Origin: Ascidia mentula
Lineage: Eukaryota; Chordata; Ascidiacea; Phlebobranchia; Ascidiidae
Assembly: GCA_947561715.1 (NCBI GenBank)
Contig: OX387205.1
Span: 253,001 to 317,000, forward strand
Length of the DNA stretch: 64,000 nucleotides
Direction: 5' to 3'
The position numbers and the translations under genes are program-made. The first letter of the stretch is position 1. Every line of letters begins with the position of its first letter. Of the stretch, positions 6,001-64,000 are shown piece after piece. Under the pieces are notes generated by a model that was not told where the DNA came from, ran no database searches, and saw nothing but the letters and a program-made list of their open reading frames with translations.

Positions 6001-9000
6001 AGGGTCATACAAGATGTTGTGACCTCATCAAATCTTATCCCAGGTGACGTTGCTTCTCAGACGAATATTATCAGAGGTTCCTCCAGGTCGGATGGCTTCA
6101 ATACTTGAGGCAAGAGTTCCAACCCAAGATAAACTCACAGAATCATTATCAGAGGTAGAAATGTGTTGTAAATATCTGAGCAAAACCAAGCACTAAATAT
6201 GTAAATTTTTATGATTCTTATTCTGCAAATAAACCATGTAGTTTAAGATTTTTAACCTGACGTTACTTACAGACATCATCGTGCAGTTCACTGTCAGAAT
6301 CACTGGAGAAATCGGAACCACGTTTCAGTGTACTTGACCCTCTTCTCGCGTGCATTTCCAAATCACTCAGTGTTCAAGTTAAGAGAGCAATGCAAGTTGA
6401 GTCACAGCCCGGAGGTGACGGAGACGCTTCAAATACTCTTAAACCTGGGAAGAGAACACAGTCCATAACTATGAGCACCTTGTTCACACAGAGGTAGGGT
6501 TCAACACAACAATGAATATGTTTTGATTCGAAGAGACCAAATATTACCCAAAAATTGTTGTCAATTCATATTACCATGGAATGTTTAACAAGTGCCTTGT
6601 TGCAGACATGCAAGTGAACACATGTGGTGGATGCAGGGGAATATGGAAGATAAATCAATTGTGGAAGCTGTAATGAAAATTTTGATTGACATGACTGAGG
6701 TAACCTTATATATTCTGCATACATTTCAACATAATAATGATCCACAAATCAAAATTAGGTGCCTGAAAAAATAGTTACAAGTAACAGAGGTTCTTGTATT
6801 TTCGAGTTATTGAAACAAAAAATTCTTGATAGTTTTTTTGTACACCACTATGTGGCACTACAGAGTGCACTAATCCAGGATATGATTTCTCTGTTTTGCC
6901 TTATTTCTGTGTGTTGTATTTCCAGAACCAGATAAGTCAGCAGTGGTGTACTGCCACCAAGTGTGCAGTATCTGAATCCCTCCTGGCATTAACGAGGCTC
7001 TCGGATGCCGAAAGGGAATCCGAGGCTTGTCTCAACAACCCCACCTTGTGGCGTGCATTGGCAGCTTTGTGTGTTCTGAGTCAAGATCATGTTGAAAAGT
7101 TGTCGTCAGCAAGATCAGCCAACAACAAAAACAAGGTACTTGCATGTTTGTTTACTAAACTTGTTACATGACAAATCAGTGATGTGATGTTAAGAAGAGT
7201 TTCAGAACGTATATTTTAAGTAAAAGGGCTGTTCGGTTATTATTAAACAACTGTTCAAAACTTTTTGTTTTTTTATTACTTTTGCATAAAAAATGTCTTC
7301 AAAACAATAATTCAGATATAAATGTTTTAAACACGCATAGGTTGATGGAATTTTTATGACAGGTTGCCAATATATACGACCTTGAAACATTCATTTTTGC
7401 ATCCAAACCTTTAAATATTCAGGTTTTTAATTTGCAACATGTTAAGTATGAGTGGTTTGTTGCGGTATCGTTGAAGGGATCAAGTAGCAAACACTTGTTA
7501 GTTTGAAAAGCATTCAGTCGGTCCAGCATCAAGTTAAGAGCCCTCCAGCAAGGCATACCAGTTACACAATGACACTCCAACTTTATTGTGGTTCTCCATC
7601 AGTTTTGCCACCAACACACACGAACACTTACAGCAAAGTTTTCTGACAAGTTGCTCTGTTTTTATTGATTAGATGTTGGATTAAGGCTCGAGTGTTTATG
7701 AACAACTAATTTTGTGTCACAACCACATTTTTTTGTTTAAGATTGCTTTTGAAAATAGGCAACATTTGGTGGCATAAAGTGTTCATGTTGGTGAAATAGC
7801 TTTGAAAACCTAAGTACTTATAAAGTCATCATATATATCAGCTATGTGTTTCACTTTGAAATAATAATTCAGAAATACCCATTTTCACATTTGCAAACAG
7901 CAGAGTAGCTTCGAGGGAAAGCTAAGGCAGATCTAGTGTGGTTTGAAAGCAGAGTAGTGAAAAGTTAGATGGCACCTTGCATACAACTGCACAGATTCCT
8001 AGCATTGCAAGACAAAGAAAGGACAAATATATTTACTTTCCTTGTTGAAAACCCACAAGAAATCTCCAGTTTTGATGTTCGCTCGAGAGAATTCCAGTTT
8101 GCCGGCCACAGGTGGTATGTCTACACTGGAAAACCCAACAATGAGTATTTCAGGTAAGTTTTGTATTTAAAAAATGTTTCACAATTATCATGTTGTGTTG
8201 TGTATGTAATTTTGCACATTTGTACTTTTTTTCTGCACTCTCCAGTATTGGATTAAAAAAATATTCTCACATTTCAGTTTTTACTTGAGAATTGTTAACT
8301 TGGGGAAGGAGGTTAGAGTTCACACCGTATATTCATTCAATGTTGTGAACTTGGTTAACTACCAGAACAATTACACCTACCATAGTCCACCTGGAGGGAG
8401 GATATTCTCAAGGGATGATGATGCGTTGTCATGGGGATGGAAAGAATTTATTCGTAGAGAGGTAACTTTATGTTAAAGATTAATTGTGATTCTCGCTTAT
8501 GATGTATGAGATATTAGTGTACAAACTCTGCTGAGAACTGTATTGAATTTTTTCAAACAGACATTGTTGAAACCAAATGGTGGATTTATATTTGATGGTA
8601 ACAAAGTTTTGGTTGAGCTCGAATGCAAATCGTACAAAACTGTGTTTGAAGAATCAATCCAACTTCCAAAAATAACACAAGAAAATCCTTTTCCAATGAT
8701 CCACACTTCGCCATTCAGTGTCGGAGGCTTCGCATGGCAGGTGATTAAATTTGTTTGAATTTTGTCATACTGTAGCATGTTTAAATAATTACTTAAATAA
8801 ATTGAACCTGTTTATTATATGGTAAACATTAATTAGCAACCAAAAAAATATTTTGTCCCTTAAAAATTATGGTAGAAACACAAAACTATCATAACAGTAA
8901 AAGTGCAACCTCATTTCCAGTGTAATTATTTGTTTCAGATAAGAATATTCCCTGATGGTCCGGATGAAGACAACAAAGGGAACGTTGCTCTGTTTCTCCA

Positions 9001-12000
9001 TTGCACGACCTCAAACCATCTGGCTAAAGTTAAATCAAAGTTTCTTATAGAAGGCCAGGTAAACGGTCTGGGATTGAGTGCACGATATGTTTGTTAAACT
9101 TTGAGCTTTGCAGCAATCCCCGGCAGTTTATGAACACACGTTCCCTCCAAACAGCATCAGTGAAATGCCAAGTGGGGTTGCTTTCCCAAATAAAGGTGAT
9201 TTCATGAACTCATTGAAAGGAAACAAACTTAAAGTTGGGATTGAATTTCTCACAGTGATGGAGGTAAGATCTTTACTTTGTATAAAGTAGTTGGTATTTA
9301 TCAAGCAGTTTATGCAGCATTTCTATTCTTTATTGAGTACCAGACTGGAACATATAAACCAGTGGTTTTAAAACTGATCCTCGCTGTACTCCAGTGCGTC
9401 ATTTTGTGTTTTCATTGTTCACTTAGTATGGTAAAATTTGTCATATGCATTGCTCATGAAAAAGTTTCGAAACCACTGATATAAGGCATAGTCAACAAGA
9501 GTTGATGTGGTGTTGATTTTTGTTGTAGGTAAACGAGGTTCATGTGACACTGTCTGAACCAAACATGTACCCAACAGTATGTGTGACACCTTTCGAAGAT
9601 ATTAATGGCTGCCCATGGGTGCTCAAGACTCTACAAGCCACAAAACTAAAATTAAAGATGGATCAGAATGAGAAAACGACCAGCGGTTTGATGGAATTTT
9701 ACCACAGGCATATTATGTGGAACGCAACCTTGGTGTCACCCGGCTCCGAAGATGTTTCTCTAAATGTCCCACTTAACACTAAAGGTCCACTGATTGGATA
9801 TTTTGGTGAAAATTGGTCAGATGCAGATGTGATAAAGTCTGACCTTGCTGTGGAAGATCTTGCGGTCACAGATAATCCATACAGGACTGATGTAGATGAT
9901 GGGTATGACAGGTTAGTTGTGTATATGAGTAACACATGATTTGCTTCTGTAATTCTGACACTTTAGTAATTCATTTCTTATTGTGACACCAAAGCATAAT
10001 TTCTGCAGCATTTTTGAATGTTAATTTACTGAGTTTGGATCCAAGTGCGCCAATGACCCAAAAAGTTTAAGATGAACTGGTTTTGGTGATTTATGTCAGA
10101 TTATGATGCCTTACCATCACCTTAGACATGACGTATTTAGCTTGTAACGCTATTTGTTGTTCAGGTACTCGTATGTATCAATCCATGTGGAAATCGTGTC
10201 GAATCATCTTTTGTACAAAACTCCTGCCCCATCGCCCACTGGAGACAGAGAGCGGAAACTACTTTACAATGCAAGGTATTATATTGCTTGAAGTATTGAG
10301 GTGTTTGTGTGTTGATAATTGTGCTATTTGGATTTTGTTGCAGAAAAGACCGAACTCATATTCACAGCAAATACCAAGAACTCCTTCGACAAAAAGCTTC
10401 GTTGGAAAATAAATGTGACAACCTGACAAGAGAGAGAACAAGATTGATTAAAACGGATGATGGGAGTGAAGCTGATTCCTTTGTACAAATTGTTCCTGAC
10501 TTCTCCAAGTTCTTGTTTGATGTTTTGAGTGACTTGGCTTTATGTGGGACAACCAAAGGTAGATTATACCCTGGAAAGGTGCAACTTATATGTTTAATCA
10601 CTGCAAGGGATATCTTGAAAACTAGTTGTTGTTTAATAAAAGTATTTTTATGTATATTAAAATATATGTTTTTTGTATATTTGTCGCAAAAGTTTAGTGC
10701 ACAGATTTGTGGCGATTTTGGTTCCACAACGTTGTTAAAAGTACTTTAAAATAAACACTTGATAATAACACCCATGAGTGTAATTGCTGTTCATATTAAT
10801 TTTATACACCAAACTTAACCATTGTATATAAGATAATTACATTTATCCCTGAAATCCTGTTCCCTACTTGGTTTTCTTAGCAGGTAAAATTATGGAGAGT
10901 CGAATTGGTAGAGTTTACCGACCGACACATCAACCTACAGATGCAGAAAAAATGAATCAATTCACAAGTTACAGGGATAACTTCAGTTTGTAAGTGTCCC
11001 TACTCATGTTCATTGCTGTGAATTGAATGTTAATGTGGTTGCAATGATGGTTGGAAGCAATTTATTTTGAAACTCTTTCCAGGTTAGTTTCGGATGCAAG
11101 ACCAAACCCAGCTGAATTGGCCGCTACCTACCAAGCAGTGGAAAACTTTAAAAATCTACTGGTGGAATTTATACAAGCAAAGACAGCACTCAGAATAACT
11201 GAAATAATAATGACAGGTGTGTGTTACAATTTCATACATTGCTATGTGTGTTAACCATTGTATGTGTTTATCCAGGGTCACTTGGAACTAACACAACATG
11301 TAGTAACAGGTGGGACGTGGACTTTGTGTTGCTTAGTGCTGATATCCCACAGAATGGGCACGCTAATTGGATGCCTTCATTCATTGTTGCCCTTGCTAAA
11401 ATGTTGGAAGAAGGTAGCATTGATGGAAAACTTCCAGATTCTTCCAACTTCACACATACGTAAGTTGAATACTTTACTTGCACACAGTTCCAAGCATTTT
11501 TACAATTTTAATTTTTTTGAAAATTTGACGGTGGAGGCAAACCAACTTATTTTCTCTCACAGAATGTACAGCGTTCAGTTTGACTTTCGCAACAAAGTGG
11601 AAGTCGATCTTTATCCTGTTTATGACTGGCAGAATGAGGAGGGTTATGAATCCTTGTACGATGAATTACTGAGACAAAGAACTTCGGAAAATTTATCATG
11701 GTTTTGTCCAGCGGCTGCTCACAGACAAAAGATATTTATTGAAGAACAACCTGATCAAGTAAGTGTCTTTAAATACTTCTCTAGCAAGTGTAAACCTTAG
11801 TCTTCAAGGTACAACTGTGCGGGGCTTATGCAGTACATTACTCTGTCATATGAGACAAAAATAGTTTGATAACTTATTTTTGGTTGCCACACAACTATGC
11901 TGTATACATTGATGCTTCCATGAAGTTCATGTGCAAATCTATGTAAAACTTTTTAAGGTAAAAGATTTGATGAAAGTTATTAAACATTGGAGGAATGCAT

Positions 12001-15000
12001 GTGATTGGAGTGAGAAACGTTGGAGGCCTTCCTCTTATTTACTTTGCCTCCTGTTGATCCGTGCATATGAGAATGCATGCCACGTTATTGAAGGAAGTTT
12101 GCCAAGCAATCGGACAGTGCTCAAGTGTTTTGTAAAACTTGTACTTTCAACTGGCAATGCAAGGTAGTCAAACAAAAGAATATTTAACAAGTCTGCTGTA
12201 TATAATATTATCTTCATGCAAACATCAATACATGAGTTGTAACAAGTAAAATTCTCATAAACAAACCTATGAATTAAACCGAAGGAGCATTTTAGTGAAA
12301 TTGATTTGTTTTAGAATTTATACACAATAGACACATCCATACTTTTCTTTAAAATTTTTTTTTTTACTCAATAAATTCCAATTTTGTTTAGGCCGGCTCC
12401 AATGAGGATATCATGGGGTCGCTTTTATGATCCTAAAGATTACAACATCGAGTATAGCAGCAGCTCTAACACGGAATGCCCACCTATTGTGCAAGACCCT
12501 GCCAACCCAGCAAACAATGTCGCTGAAAGACCAGTTTCATGGCTTCCATTTCGACAAATGTTGGAGAGTTGGGCACATGCACTTGGCATGATGGAAGAAG
12601 GCACATTGTTGCCAATTGAATCTGCCAGAAGATGATATTTTATATTGTTTTCTGCCTTAGTGACAATTTGTCCTGCAATATCTTGTTTAATATGAATGTT
12701 ATTATGTCGTTGTGTATATTTTGTAGAAAACTGTTACTTCTTGTGAATAAAATATTTTCAACTGGACTAAATATGTTTTGACTGAACGAAACAAACTGTA
12801 ATTAAACCCACTTGTCATAAATTCATATGAAACAAATACTTACAATAATATGTTTATAGCTGACATGTGAGAACCATGATGATGGATTAACACAAGCCAT
12901 CATCCAGTGCAATGAGTGTGGGAACTTATGTTCAGAATGTGACCGATATCTTCATCTACATCGAAGAACAAGATCACATCAACGTCAGGTTAGAAACAAA
13001 TGCAGAACTTTCATACTCAATGCAAAATGAATCAGTCTATCTGGCTGTAATTCCTGTTCTTAATGTGCCATGTTATACCTAAAATTTACATTCTCTATTA
13101 CACTCTATTTATTGTTGTTTGTGCACAGCTGTGTACCTTAGCAAACCTCACTCAATGTCATCTCCTGCATTACAGATCAATAAAAAAAAGTCTTATATGC
13201 TTAACACAACATACACATTATACATGTTTTTTTGATGCAAAATCATCATTTCCTGTTTTGAGTTGTCAAAACAGCCCAAATGGTAGTGATATTATTGCAG
13301 TCTGTGTAGAAATAATTGTATGTTGCAGATATTCAAAGAGGAAGAAGAAGCGATCAGAGTAGACTTGCATGAAGGTTGTGGAAGGATTAAACTTTTCTGG
13401 TTCAAGGCACTTGCAGACTCCAATACACTGAAGGCCATGGTCGAGTTCAAGAACAGATCAACAGGTAAGGAGTGACATTCAAATTTATTTACTTCTATGC
13501 AAAAAACATTCTTCTCGAAAATAACATTTCGTGTCTACGTTATTGTAAACAACAGTTTTAATACAGATTCTTGTGTTATTCCACTGTATGTATTGAACTA
13601 TTTGTCAATTTGGTGTTATGTAAAAACTTGTTTGTTTGAAGGTCAAATGCAACCAGTGACAACTGATGCTTGTCGGTTTTGTGGAAATGCATGTGATAGC
13701 ACACAACTTGTGATGAGCAATATTTGCAATGATACAACTTGCCAGAAATATGCTGCCATGGTAACTCTTTTTAGCATATTTGTAATTTTTTACAAAAACT
13801 CATCTTTGTATGTAAACCTTTTACCACATAAAACATTTCTTGACAATGATTTTTTGAATAATTATATGATAATTTCCACAAAGCGATCTGTGGATAGCTC
13901 AGATGGTGGAAGTTTATCGAGAAAAATGTTTACCTAAAAAAGGCATCGTCAGTTTCTCCACCTTTATTAAAATGGAATCTTTTGACTGGTATCATTTTTG
14001 GATAAATTGCACAATTTCTGTGCAATTGCTGGAGATTCTTTGCGACATATTGTTGTGTCAATGTTTCAAGTTACCTAAACTTTACAGGTTTGCACCAAGA
14101 CCCACTCTTGTGGACATCTCTGTGGTGGAGTAAAGGATGAAGAAACTTGCCTTATGTGTCTCCATTCCTCATGTAATCCTGGTTTAAATCAGGATGCTGA
14201 TGATATGTGCATGATTTGTTTTACCGATGCTTTGTCAGCTGCTCCTGCAATCCAGGTAGAAATGCGTGTAACAGAATAAAATATTGTAGAGTACTCTCAT
14301 CGTACCACTGAATTTCAGTTAAAATGTGGCCACATATTTCACATCCACTGTTGTCAAACACAACTGCAGAAGCAATGGGCTGGACCTAGGATAACATTTG
14401 GTTTCTTGCTGTGCTCAATTTGTAAGGTATGTAATATTGCAAGCTCAGGGTACATTAGCAACTGTAGCATGTATGTAAACAAAAAAGTAGTTAAAAAAAT
14501 CAAACATAGTGGAAATGGTTTGGTGATTTCCATCAGATACAAGTGTTTTCATGAGTCATGTGTCCTAATAAATAAGGTAAAAAATTGTTGCTCACAGAAT
14601 GAGGTAAATCATGAAGCTTTGGAAACATACTTAAAGCCTTTGCGGGAACTTATGCAAGAAGTCAAGCGCAAGGCATTACAACGCCTCGAATATGAAGGTC
14701 TTAAAGAATGTGAAACTATCACCACAGTGGGTGGGAAGTTTTACAAGGACCCAACTGGATTTGCCCTGAATAAATATGCCTACTACATGTGCTGCAAGTG
14801 CAATAAGGTATGTGGTGGTTAATTTGAACTTGGCCAGTTCAATCCATGTTTGTGTGTAACAATTAAACTCTGTAGGCATACTATGGTGGAGAAGTGAGAT
14901 GTGATGCTGAAGCAGATGGAGACCTGTTTGATCCCCAAGAACTAATCTGTGGTGCCTGTTCTGATATTTCATGTGCACAAATATGCCCCAAACATGGAAC

Positions 15001-15560: not shown

Positions 15561-17114
15561 TCATATATTGTCAGGTGATAAATGACCTTCCTCTAAATTG
15601 CCAACAAAAGTTTCATCCCTTTCCAAGATTTTCAATTTACTTTCATTCTGCAGGTGGCCATCATTAAAAATGTTGCCACGAAATTGCCTTTCGTCAGCAA
15701 ATGTCAAGGCATGGTACAAATTGGAAGAAAACTCCACGGGGTTACTTATACACTTTGTTAATGAATAACAAGTTTCACGAAACAAACTGTTGCAACTGTG
15801 TTTGACAATATCTGATATAGCTTGCACAGTGTTTTCACTTGCAGCTTTGTACATTGCATCTTTTTCTGGCTGAAATGCCATTGGATGACCTTCATCTAAG
15901 ACCAAAATGCAAGCTTCTTTAATTTTTCGTCTGTTGCTTTTTATTATGTGTTCGTAATTGTTCTGGACATAATTAAGGATGTTCCACTTGGAAGGCAAAT
16001 CAAATTCATTTTTCCCATCAATTTCTAAGTTAATTACTATTACAATACTGAATGGTGGAAACTCCTGCTTCCAACCAATAGTCCATTTGCCATAGGGCTG
16101 TAATCTGTAAGTTTTGTTCACTTGTAAGTCGTCGCAGACCACGAAAGGACAGCGTGTTATTGGTAGAAGGTCCTTTATGGTTAATTTATTATTGTTTGCC
16201 GATTTAAAGGGTAATTTAAATGGACCGTAAAAGTAAACCAAGACGTCACTTTGTACTGAATCACATTCAAGGAATGCAGCGGCAACAGTCAAAGAGTAGT
16301 TTACTTTGTCAAATGTACAAGTTATTGGGTTGCAGACGGAGAAATTAAGCTCTTGTTTTTTGCAACTATCTGTATAAAAATCAGAAAACGAAATAAGGCC
16401 AAGTGATTCCTGGTTGTAGCTTAAAGCCCATTTCTCAACTCTTCTGTCTTCAACAGGTTCGAAAGCAAAAGATATAGACAAAAATTCATTGGAAATATTG
16501 TAAAGATGTTTCAAGTATGCACTCAACTTTAAGCTTAATGACAATGCAAAAGCAGAAGAGCAAGCAAAGTTCATTGAAAAAGATGATGTGCAATCATCAT
16601 AAAAATTGCTTTTTAAACTTCTTTTAACCAAAGTGCACTGGGAATGCCTGTTAAAACTTACCGTTTGGACGCCACACTTATGTCCCTTGGATTGTATTTC
16701 AGTTTTAAAACTGACACTAAGCGGCTCGTCTCCATACAAGTTGCAGCACAGTTCACATAAATCACCTTGAACGTCTATACATCTAGACTCGATTAACTCG
16801 TTCAGCTCCAAAATAGCAAGATTTTTCACTGCAATCTTTACTAGATGTTCACACTGTTCTGTTGATGTCGGTTCAAGTTCGGTGACAAATATTTTTACTT
16901 GGCAAGGTGAACTGTCCGTTTTGTCCAAGAAAGACAACTTCAATACTTTCAAAGCACAATTTGTTAAAATATCTTCGTACTTTGACCACGAAACATTCAT
17001 CACAAATTGCAGCAGTCCACGCCAAAACTTACCAAGTTTAAAGAAAATAATTTTTCCTTTTCGCAGACCAGAGTCATAGAAATCTATGGACTTTGTCGCA
17101 GACAACATAATCAC
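15561..17114 (-). CDS. Unrecognised intronless 517-aa protein
   Basis: A single uninterrupted reading frame, far longer than chance in this AT-rich DNA. I do not recognise the family. It is Cys- and Ser-rich in its first 250 residues (for example LCELCCNLYGDE), with no signal peptide and no clear membrane segment. The central part has LQPYGKWTIGWKQEFPPF followed by a hydrophobic strand (SIVIVINLEI), and the C-terminal third is helical (HIIKSNRRKIKEACILVLDE). It ends 208 bases from the MYCBP2 stop (convergent) and starts 307 bases from the DUF1349 gene (divergent, possibly a shared promoter). Lack of introns among intron-rich neighbours suggests a retrocopy or a fast-evolving gene. Cytosolic or nuclear location is inferred only from the absence of targeting signals. 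Confidence 0.75.
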   Translation of the reverse strand: MIMLSATKSIDFYDSGLRKGKIIFFKLGKFWRGLLQFVMNVSWSKYEDILTNCALKVLKLSFLDKTDSSPCQVKIFVTELEPTSTEQCEHLVKIAVKNLAILELNELIESRCIDVQGDLCELCCNLYGDEPLSVSFKTEIQSKGHKCGVQTVSFNRHSQCTLVKRSLKSNFYDDCTSSFSMNFACSSAFALSLSLKLSAYLKHLYNISNEFLSISFAFEPVEDRRVEKWALSYNQESLGLISFSDFYTDSCKKQELNFSVCNPITCTFDKVNYSLTVAAAFLECDSVQSDVLVYFYGPFKLPFKSANNNKLTIKDLLPITRCPFVVCDDLQVNKTYRLQPYGKWTIGWKQEFPPFSIVIVINLEIDGKNEFDLPSKWNILNYVQNNYEHIIKSNRRKIKEACILVLDEGHPMAFQPEKDAMYKAASENTVQAISDIVKHSCNSLFRETCYSLTKCISNPVEFSSNLYHALTFADERQFRGNIFNDGHLQNESKLKILERDETFVGNLEEGHLSPDNI

Positions 17115-17421
17115 GTGATATGCATATTTTCACACGGTTGGGCGTGATTATGTGAATAGTTAACCTTTACGGTCACACGCCTGTGAGTACTGTTCCTTTA
17201 AATTATGTTTTCATGATAGTGTTTTAGATAATTTTTCTCGTTTGCATTAGAAGCTAACAACAACTCGCCAGTATTTAAAAAAACATCCGAGCGTATGGTG
17301 TTGCAACCCTTGCAACGTCAATCGCGCCAACAAATATTTGCCTCCAGCAAACAGCAACAGGTAGGTACAGAGGTACTTGCACTTTACACCATTCATTCGC
17401 GCACCGAATCAATTAACAATA

Positions 17422-33396: not shown

Positions 33397-51419
<18,023 letters not shown>

Positions 51420-62506: not shown

Positions 62507-63527
62507 GAGGTGTTGGTGACATGTAGCATTTTGATGTTTGTGGCGTAAAGCATTGTGGTGTCAGTGACATGTAGCATTTTGGTGTCAGTGACATGTAGCA
62601 CTTTGATGTTAGTGACAAGTAGCATTTTGATGATAGTGACATGTAGCATTTTGATGTTAGTGACATGTATCATTGTGATGTTAGTAACATGTAGCACTTT
62701 GATGTTAGTGACATATAGCATTTTTGATATTAGTCACATGTAGCATTTTGATGTTAGTGACATATAGCATTTTTGATATTAGTCACATGTAGCATTTTGA
62801 TGTTAGTGACATGTAGCATTTTGGTGTCAGTGACATGTAGCACTTTGATGTTAGTGACATGTAGCATTTTGGTGTCAGTGACATGTAGCATTTTGGTGTC
62901 AGTGACATGTAGCACTTTGATGTTAGTGACATGTAGCATTTTGGTGTCAGTGACATGTAGCACTTTGATGTTAGTGACATGTAGCATTTTGATGTTAGTG
63001 GCATGTAGCACTTTGATGTTAGTGACATGTAGCACTTTGAAGTTAGTGACATATAGCATTTTTGATATATTGCACATGTAGCATTTTGATGTTAGTGACA
63101 TATAGCATTTTTGATATTAGTCACATGTAGCATTTTGATGTTAGTGACATGTAGCATTTTGGTGTCAGTGACATGTAGCACTTTGATGTTAGTGACATGT
63201 AGCATTTTGATGTTAGTGACATGTAGCATTTTGATGTTAGTGGCATGTAGCATTTTGATGTTAGTGACATGTAGCATTTTGATGTTAGTGGCATGTAGCA
63301 TTTTGATGTTAGTGACATGTAGCATTTTCTTGAAATGGCGCAACAATTGAAAAAACACGCATGTGGTGACAATCTATTACAAGCGAATAATACACAGGAT
63401 AAATATTTTGCGGCTGTACATTCAACGGCAAAAGCACCATACGAATGCATTGCATATCTTTGACAAGTCAAGCGAGGGGAAATAAGAACGCACGACCAAA
63501 GTCTTTGTATGTACGTGCCTTTCAACC
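61598..63527. repeat. Widely spaced inverted repeat pair enclosing the minisatellite
   Basis: 61598-61628 (with TACATACAAAGACTTT) is matched by the reverse complement of 63496-63527. Adjoining TGCGTTCTTA (61673-61682) is matched by 63484-63493. On the left the two pieces are about 43 bases further apart than on the right. The pair may be the ends of an old mobile element. Confidence 0.5.
62507..63330. repeat. 24-bp minisatellite, about 34 copies, with higher-order structure
   Basis: The unit is gtagcattttgatgttag followed by tgacat, with three main 24-bp variants (ATTTTGATGTTAG, ATTTTGGTGTCAG, ACTTTGATGTTAG cores) and a 25-bp variant with TTTTTGATATTAGTC. A block of about 110 bases or more from 62761 recurs at 63099, giving a higher-order period near 338 bases. 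Because 24 is divisible by 3 it produces long repetitive open frames on both strands that are not genes. Confidence 0.95.
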
Positions 63528-64000
63528 AACGAGTGAACTCAAAACGAGGCATGCAAAATTTTCGCCGCGGATACAATTAACCAAATGTAAACCAGTGTCA
63601 TATGCCCACAATAGTTTGTAGAGATTTGTCCGCACATTTAACAACAGCAGTCAAACGCCAAAAATATTAAATGGAGTTAAGATCATCAACATACATCGAC
63701 AGAAACACTTACTTGTATCTTTCAAGTTTGTTGAGAAATCATTCCACAAAACGTGTGAAATTCCGACTGTTGGAAATATGTTGTTGAAGGGATCTGATTT
63801 ATCTGAACAACAAAAAAAGCAGAAGTAGCGCCATCTACCGGCTAAAGTATGTTCAACGAAAACTTATTTTCCAATTAGATTTCTTCTGGTGCGAAGTGCA
63901 TACTTTTACGTTAAATCTTTTGTTGTTTCCAATACATTTCAGCTGAGATTGTATAAACCACAGGGCCGTACAAGTAGTTTTGAAACTGTACTTGTCCACA
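63341..64000. other. Right-hand edge without a recognised gene
   Basis: No conserved coding segment was seen apart from the right arm of the inverted repeat (63483-63527). Confidence 0.4.

Follow-up and report, generated by a model that had tools for sequence, protein, structure and literature searches.

The window analysed here is a 64,000-nucleotide stretch of the ascidian Ascidia mentula (contig OX387205.1, positions 253,001 to 317,000 of the forward strand), and coordinates refer to its first letter unless stated otherwise. It contains a gene, called MATH-OAS in the following, that joins N-terminal MATH domains to an OAS-type nucleotidyltransferase core and lies entirely within an intron of a MYCBP2-like gene (Table 1). 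We re-derived MATH-OAS at 7969-12635 on the plus strand as 14 exons and 13 introns, every intron being of the GT...AG type. The spliced frame measures 2598 nucleotides including the stop codon and encodes 865 amino acids (aa) without an internal stop, which reproduces the in-frame 14-exon model of an earlier note on this DNA. The start codon is supported by an in-frame stop at 7966, immediately 5' of the ATG, and by the N-terminus MAPxIQLHRF, common to the window protein and to its relatives from Clavelina, Styela and the entry P0003, described below.

The domain content of the protein was analyzed with Pfam. For the whole 865-aa model, four families in all were listed at expectation values (E) up to 10. 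MATH_2 (E 2e-22, 80.3 bits for a curated cut-off of 32), OAS1_C (PF10421, E 9.8e-17, residues 681-851, 61.6 bits for a cut-off of 19.9) and MATH (E 7.2e-7) were above their curated cut-offs, and DUF1802 (E 0.04) was under its own. When pieces were searched apart, MATH_2 was detected in residues 1-150 (E 3.6e-11, 43.9 bits) and again in residues 151-284 (E 2.8e-8, 34.5 bits), where it covers only residues 19-70 of the piece. The third domain, searched as residues 274-421, gave no Pfam match, and the sole match of residues 422-678 was NTP_transf_2 at E 0.034, under its cut-off. Profile comparisons among the three N-terminal domains were weak (E 0.092, 0.14 and 0.56), the best and likewise weak match of the third being domain 2 (E 0.14). 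The earlier note had named two, perhaps three, MATH domains and had proposed a domain search for MATH, OAS1_C and NTP_transf_2: two MATH domains and OAS1_C are present above cut-off, whereas neither the third MATH domain nor NTP_transf_2 reached that level. A coiled coil is possible after the third domain. A helix was placed at 428-472 in a predicted structure of the Clavelina protein (four sequences; mean predicted local distance difference test score (pLDDT) 46.8, predicted template modelling score (pTM) 0.32), a weak model whose fold matches are used as support only, and windows starting at 433-434 were among the best in a crude heptad score, in which those starting at 561-563 were higher.

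To identify relatives, we searched with the full window protein; 7998 candidates, those sharing most words, were scored, and three passed the threshold of E 0.001. Two are annotated 'uncharacterized protein', LOC143468872 of Clavelina lepadiformis (862 aa, 79% identity) and LOC120348292 of Styela clava (871 aa, 64% identity), both full length and identical in domain order. The third, P0003 (a JGI protein), has 886 aa and 62% identity, and its frame occupies 2658 bases of its sole listed contig of 2948 bases. Because this leaves too little space for introns like those of the MATH-OAS gene, the contig is best read as a transcript, the alternative being an intronless gene. A search with the OAS half (4296 candidates) gave a further protein, P0004 (EukProt, 824 aa), which agrees in its Pfam accessions and their order and has 21% identity to the Clavelina protein across most of the length. 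Pfam detects only the first MATH domain in the MATH region of P0004, and its OAS1_C domain is without one stretch. With P0004 as query, only P0004 itself was returned from 2564 candidates. No relative from Ciona, Phallusia or Oikopleura was named among the matches of the three protein searches, which does not show absence, the first search having scored only 7998 candidates. That relatives are collinear over their full length, at 79, 64 and 62% identity, argues against chance as the origin of this architecture. Together with the Pfam matches, these relatives agree with the earlier proposal of a single gene in which MATH domains precede an OAS-type core, and the fusion, not confined to one species, is near certain. 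Clavelina (Aplousobranchia) and Styela (Stolidobranchia) stand on the two sides of a deep split. With diversification among the major tunicate groups dated to about 450-350 million years ago (PMC5899321), this distribution indicates that the fusion is old within tunicates. In a literature search of titles and abstract openings, with subscription journals mostly outside it, no description of a MATH-OAS fusion was found among the matches listed; in PMC10732462, the letters 'math' and 'traf' turn up solely as parts of other words, and PMC6307210 does not contain 'math'.

Regarding the genome, the Clavelina protein gave 13 exon matches at E up to 0.01, every one within the MATH-OAS gene, in a search that did not reach the canonical OAS and could miss distant copies. 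At this threshold, MATH-OAS is the only copy found. The second OAS1_C gene of the genome, on contig C70, is a canonical OAS. Its open frames are continuous across two of the MATH-OAS intron sites, one separating the GS motif from the third Asp and the other preceding VKDL, which argues against a recent duplication. An RNase L candidate was sought in the genome through the KEN domain and none was found, the sole KEN-domain gene matching IRE1 (E 1.1e-69). A search for Mab-21 gave one locus, on C72. A search for STING matched nothing, and neither did its control, so that this negative carries no weight. On C70, C2H2-like zinc-finger stretches (zf-C2H2 E 3.7e-4, under cut-off; L018:6239-7058 and 7512-9148) precede the canonical OAS gene on the same strand, and a zinc finger-OAS fusion there is possible but unproven.

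We then considered the class of the core. Among solved structures, the sequence matched OAS2 and OAS1 first (E 4e-15 to 7.7e-11) and OASL next (E 1.8e-5), and the best PDB matches of the C-terminal half of the Clavelina protein were again OAS. Two chains of 9s6c, quinoprotein amine dehydrogenase-like, matched residues 486-590, in the linker before the core (E 4.9e-4); the Clavelina half did not reproduce this match, which is probably due to chance. In the structural comparison made with the weak model, the best rows were OAS, with NF90/NF45 (DZF) rows close behind and cGAS rows also trailing. For the residue comparison, the five fusion proteins (window, Clavelina, Styela, P0003 and P0004, the order kept below) and the canonical OAS on C70 were aligned to a human OAS1 fragment. 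The window protein has the GS serine S591 and the catalytic acids D603, D605 and D666. The GS motif and the triad are kept in four of the five fusion proteins; P0004 has A, E, D and V at these positions, its third Asp being lost. The equivalents of OAS1 K213 and Y230 are kept in all five. OAS1_C is the superfamily marker used in PMC10732462, and by this domain above cut-off, the GS motif and the triad, the core is assigned to the OAS superfamily. The cGAS half of the 'OAS/cGAS-like' label given in the earlier note was not retained: Mab-21 (PF03281), the domain of cGAS and the cGAS-like receptors (cGLRs), is not among the four families listed for the whole model at E up to 10, OAS1_C is, and the best structural rows are OAS.

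The MATH part was likewise compared with known systems. TRAFs have RING and zf-TRAF domains, a coil and then a C-terminal MATH domain, whereas MATH comes first in the MATH-OAS protein, and neither RING nor zf-TRAF is among the Pfam families listed for the whole model. TRAF membership is therefore rejected on domain order, and the direct wiring to TRAF-like signalling suggested earlier is weak. In SPOP and USP7, an N-terminal MATH domain precedes the functional module. MATH-OAS resembles them in this, and the nearest solved MATH proteins were SPOP (from E 5.2e-4); it differs from both in that its MATH-type domains number two or three and in having an OAS core in place of a BTB domain or a protease. 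Compared to OAS1, OAS2 and OAS3, with which it has OAS1_C, the GS motif, the Asp triad and the K213 and Y230 equivalents in common, the MATH-OAS protein differs by its N-terminal MATH domains and helix, by the replacement of K66 and E233 and by changes at most acceptor-pocket positions. OASL is similar in that its OAS core is joined to domains for protein interaction and has no Lys at the K66 place, but its added domains are ubiquitin-like and its triad is incomplete (PMC4446440), whereas here the MATH domains are N-terminal and the triad is kept.

Along the protein, identities to Clavelina, Styela and P0003 were 96, 79 and 87% for MATH 1, 80, 78 and 72% for MATH 2, 93, 80 and 74% for the third domain, 67, 43 and 50% for the coil, 51, 36 and 28% for the pre-core segment, 68, 49 and 48% for the nucleotidyltransferase core and 81, 63 and 57% for the OAS C-terminal domain. 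By these values, the N-terminal half is under stronger constraint than the nucleotidyltransferase core, with the OAS C-terminal domain intermediate.

In OAS1, double-stranded RNA (dsRNA) moves K66 to E233 and displaces R195, which then touches the RNA, and charge swaps at R194/R198 of the pig enzyme lower dsRNA-dependent activity about 10,000-fold (PMC13372824). The window protein reads T594, K707 and C746 at K66, R195 and E233. In the five fusion proteins, the K66 place reads T, T, T, T, E and the E233 place C, A, A, S, S, both replaced throughout, and the R195 place reads K, K, K, V, S. At K66, R195, K199 and E233, the C70 canonical OAS has K, I, R and E. The fusion proteins thus lack the K66-E233 pair, which the canonical OAS of this genome has. 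The RNA or DNA sensing put forward in the earlier note is not shown by the sequence. K60 and K199 are further basic dsRNA contacts, from OASL and pig mutants (PMC4446440, PMC13372824). The window protein reads M and E there, the K199 place reading E, K, E, N, R in the five proteins. At K204, which we take to be another such contact, it reads Q, and the K60 and K204 places are non-basic in all five. In human OASL, Asn72 occupies the OAS1 K66 place (OASL K66 corresponding to OAS1 K60), yet OASL binds dsRNA; in OASL, poly(A) polymerase (PAP) and CCA enzymes, bulky residues form helix N4 without dsRNA (PMC4446440). At the place of OASL Phe70, the five fusion proteins have L, L, I, I, Y, but the canonical OAS also has Y; a core independent of dsRNA would fit these helix N4 observations. 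The E233 replacement strengthens the case against the OAS1 switch, and OASL N72 weakens it. Hu et al. (PMC6307210) named seven positions of the acceptor pocket, given here as the pig number plus one. Two of them, V79 and Q194, are unchanged in the window protein, and the other five differ, with Y at R130 (a column near gaps), Y at L150, C at S187, P at T188 and A at T191. For sponge enzymes, that paper links retained 3' products with substitutions at T188 and T191, numbered as in the human protein. The product is not predictable from this pocket, because the canonical OAS differs there too.

Taken together, we favour, at about even chances, an active oligonucleotide synthase that would be controlled through MATH-bound partners or oligomerisation rather than through the dsRNA switch of OAS1. 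The enzyme would join nucleotides into a messenger, its MATH domains would anchor it to an oligomer or to a partner protein that is itself conserved, and the docked partner, or clustering through it, would switch the enzyme on or off; control of this kind is proposed because the switch residues of OAS1 are missing. Catalytic activity as such is probable, and an antiviral or stress-signalling role is likely. Several points weigh against this interpretation. The family may include pseudoenzymes, as the third Asp of P0004 is lost, and OAS1_C (57-81%) is about as conserved as MATH 2 (72-80%) in the comparison with Clavelina. The R195 place is Lys in three of the five fusion proteins and the 199 place K or R in two. 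Loss of K66 alone does not exclude dsRNA binding, since OASL binds dsRNA with Asn72, and positions 195 and 204 are non-basic in the genome's canonical OAS too, which likewise differs at several places in the acceptor pocket. The predicted model is poor (mean pLDDT 46.8) and does not allow surface charge to be judged, and we infer activity, ligand, product and immune role alike.

The alternative that survives best, although unlikely, is a dsRNA-activated 2',5'-oligoadenylate (2-5A) synthetase whose MATH domains would serve only location or stability. It agrees with the superfamily membership and intact triad, with the three Lys at the R195 place and with dsRNA binding by OASL, but K66 and E233 are replaced and K60 and K204 non-basic in all five fusion proteins, the acceptor pocket of the window protein is unlike OAS1 at five of seven positions, and the same genome has a separate canonical OAS with K66 and E233 and no RNase L candidate found. 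Distinctly unlikely is an OASL-style adaptor without catalysis, in which the MATH domains would recruit partners such as ubiquitin ligases: the third Asp is lost in P0004 as in human OASL (PMC4446440) and the nucleotidyltransferase core evolves faster than the MATH domains, but the triad is kept in the other four proteins. Even less probable is a non-immune nucleotidyltransferase, for example in RNA tailing or as an NF90/NF45-like RNA-binding partner. The structural rows of NF90/NF45 come close behind OAS, DZF is not among the Pfam families listed, the C-terminal half exceeds the curated cut-off for OAS1_C alone, and the best PDB matches are OAS. Two adjacent genes, or MATH and OAS exons wrongly joined, are highly improbable and are rejected because four fusion proteins of full length are known from elsewhere, one of them encoded by a contig without room for introns of this kind, because the first Met and the order are common to them, and because the frame is open across all 13 introns.

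The control of an oligonucleotide synthase through MATH-bound partners can be extended to a wider proposal, which we regard as possible but doubtful. MATH-OAS would represent an OAS class conserved across ascidian orders, possibly older, in which the MATH platform recognises either a partner protein or an effector of a pathogen that disturbs this partner, and gates the synthesis of an oligonucleotide messenger neither triggered by dsRNA nor read by RNase L, as a protein-gated counterpart of the OAS pathway. OAS enzymes are textbook dsRNA sensors, and MATH-OAS, in which the triad is conserved and the switch residues of OAS1 are missing, would show a second control mode for the OAS core. It occurs in tunicates, the sister group of vertebrates, and this conserved and unstudied combination hints at a differently controlled version of a human antiviral-messenger enzyme. 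It offers a defined protein for studying the coupling between nucleotide messengers and protein recognition. Since RNase L was not seen in this genome, it also poses the question of which molecule would read the product of an OAS there.

Table 1. Exons of the MATH-OAS gene and associated features in the window.
Feature	Position	Strand	Content
Exon 1	7969..8153	+	aa 1-61; start codon, onset of MATH domain 1
Exon 2	8278..8461	+	aa 62-123; MATH 1
Exon 3	8561..8740	+	aa 124-183; end of MATH 1, onset of MATH 2
Exon 4	8939..9058	+	aa 184-223; MATH 2
Exon 5	9114..9263	+	aa 224-273; remainder of MATH 2, extent inferred
Exon 6	9529..9911	+	aa 274-400; third domain, rich in beta strands and not proven to be MATH (no Pfam match)
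Exon 7	10165..10275	+	aa 401-437; end of third domain, linker
Exon 8	10344..10558	+	aa 438-509; long helix by prediction, which may form a coiled coil
Exon 9	10884..10989	+	aa 510-544; linker, weakly conserved
Exon 10	11083..11216	+	aa 545-589; onset of nucleotidyltransferase core
Exon 11	11276..11459	+	aa 590-650; GS motif S591, T594 (OAS1 K66 place), catalytic D603 and D605
Exon 12	11563..11758	+	aa 651-716; third catalytic Asp D666, onset of OAS1_C
Exon 13	11958..12163	+	aa 717-784; OAS1_C; K725 (OAS1 K213), Y743 (Y230), C746 (E233)
Exon 14	12392..12635	+	aa 785-865; end of OAS1_C, stop codon
Poly-A signal AATAAA	12746..12751	+	read from the sequence
Intron of MYCBP2-like gene holding the entire MATH-OAS gene	7136..12859	+	ends placed by eye from splice sites

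MATH-OAS is flanked by same-strand exons of the MYCBP2-like gene, the upstream one ending at 7135 and the downstream one starting at 12860. On the downstream side, RING exons match MYCBP2 (E 1.6e-23); on the upstream side, the same strand carries two PHR domains (C73:240237-244695). Pfam found nothing on three other upstream exon pieces; from human MYCBP2, we presume that the upstream exon belongs to the same gene. Elsewhere in the window, a stop-to-stop frame of 522 aa lies at 15564-17129 on the minus strand, its first 150 residues being without a Pfam match. Exon-like frames at 36237-50101 on the plus strand resemble an alpha subunit of a voltage-gated cation channel, and short tandem repeats at 62757-63576 on the minus strand have open frames that read KCYMSLTS or KMLHVTNI units.

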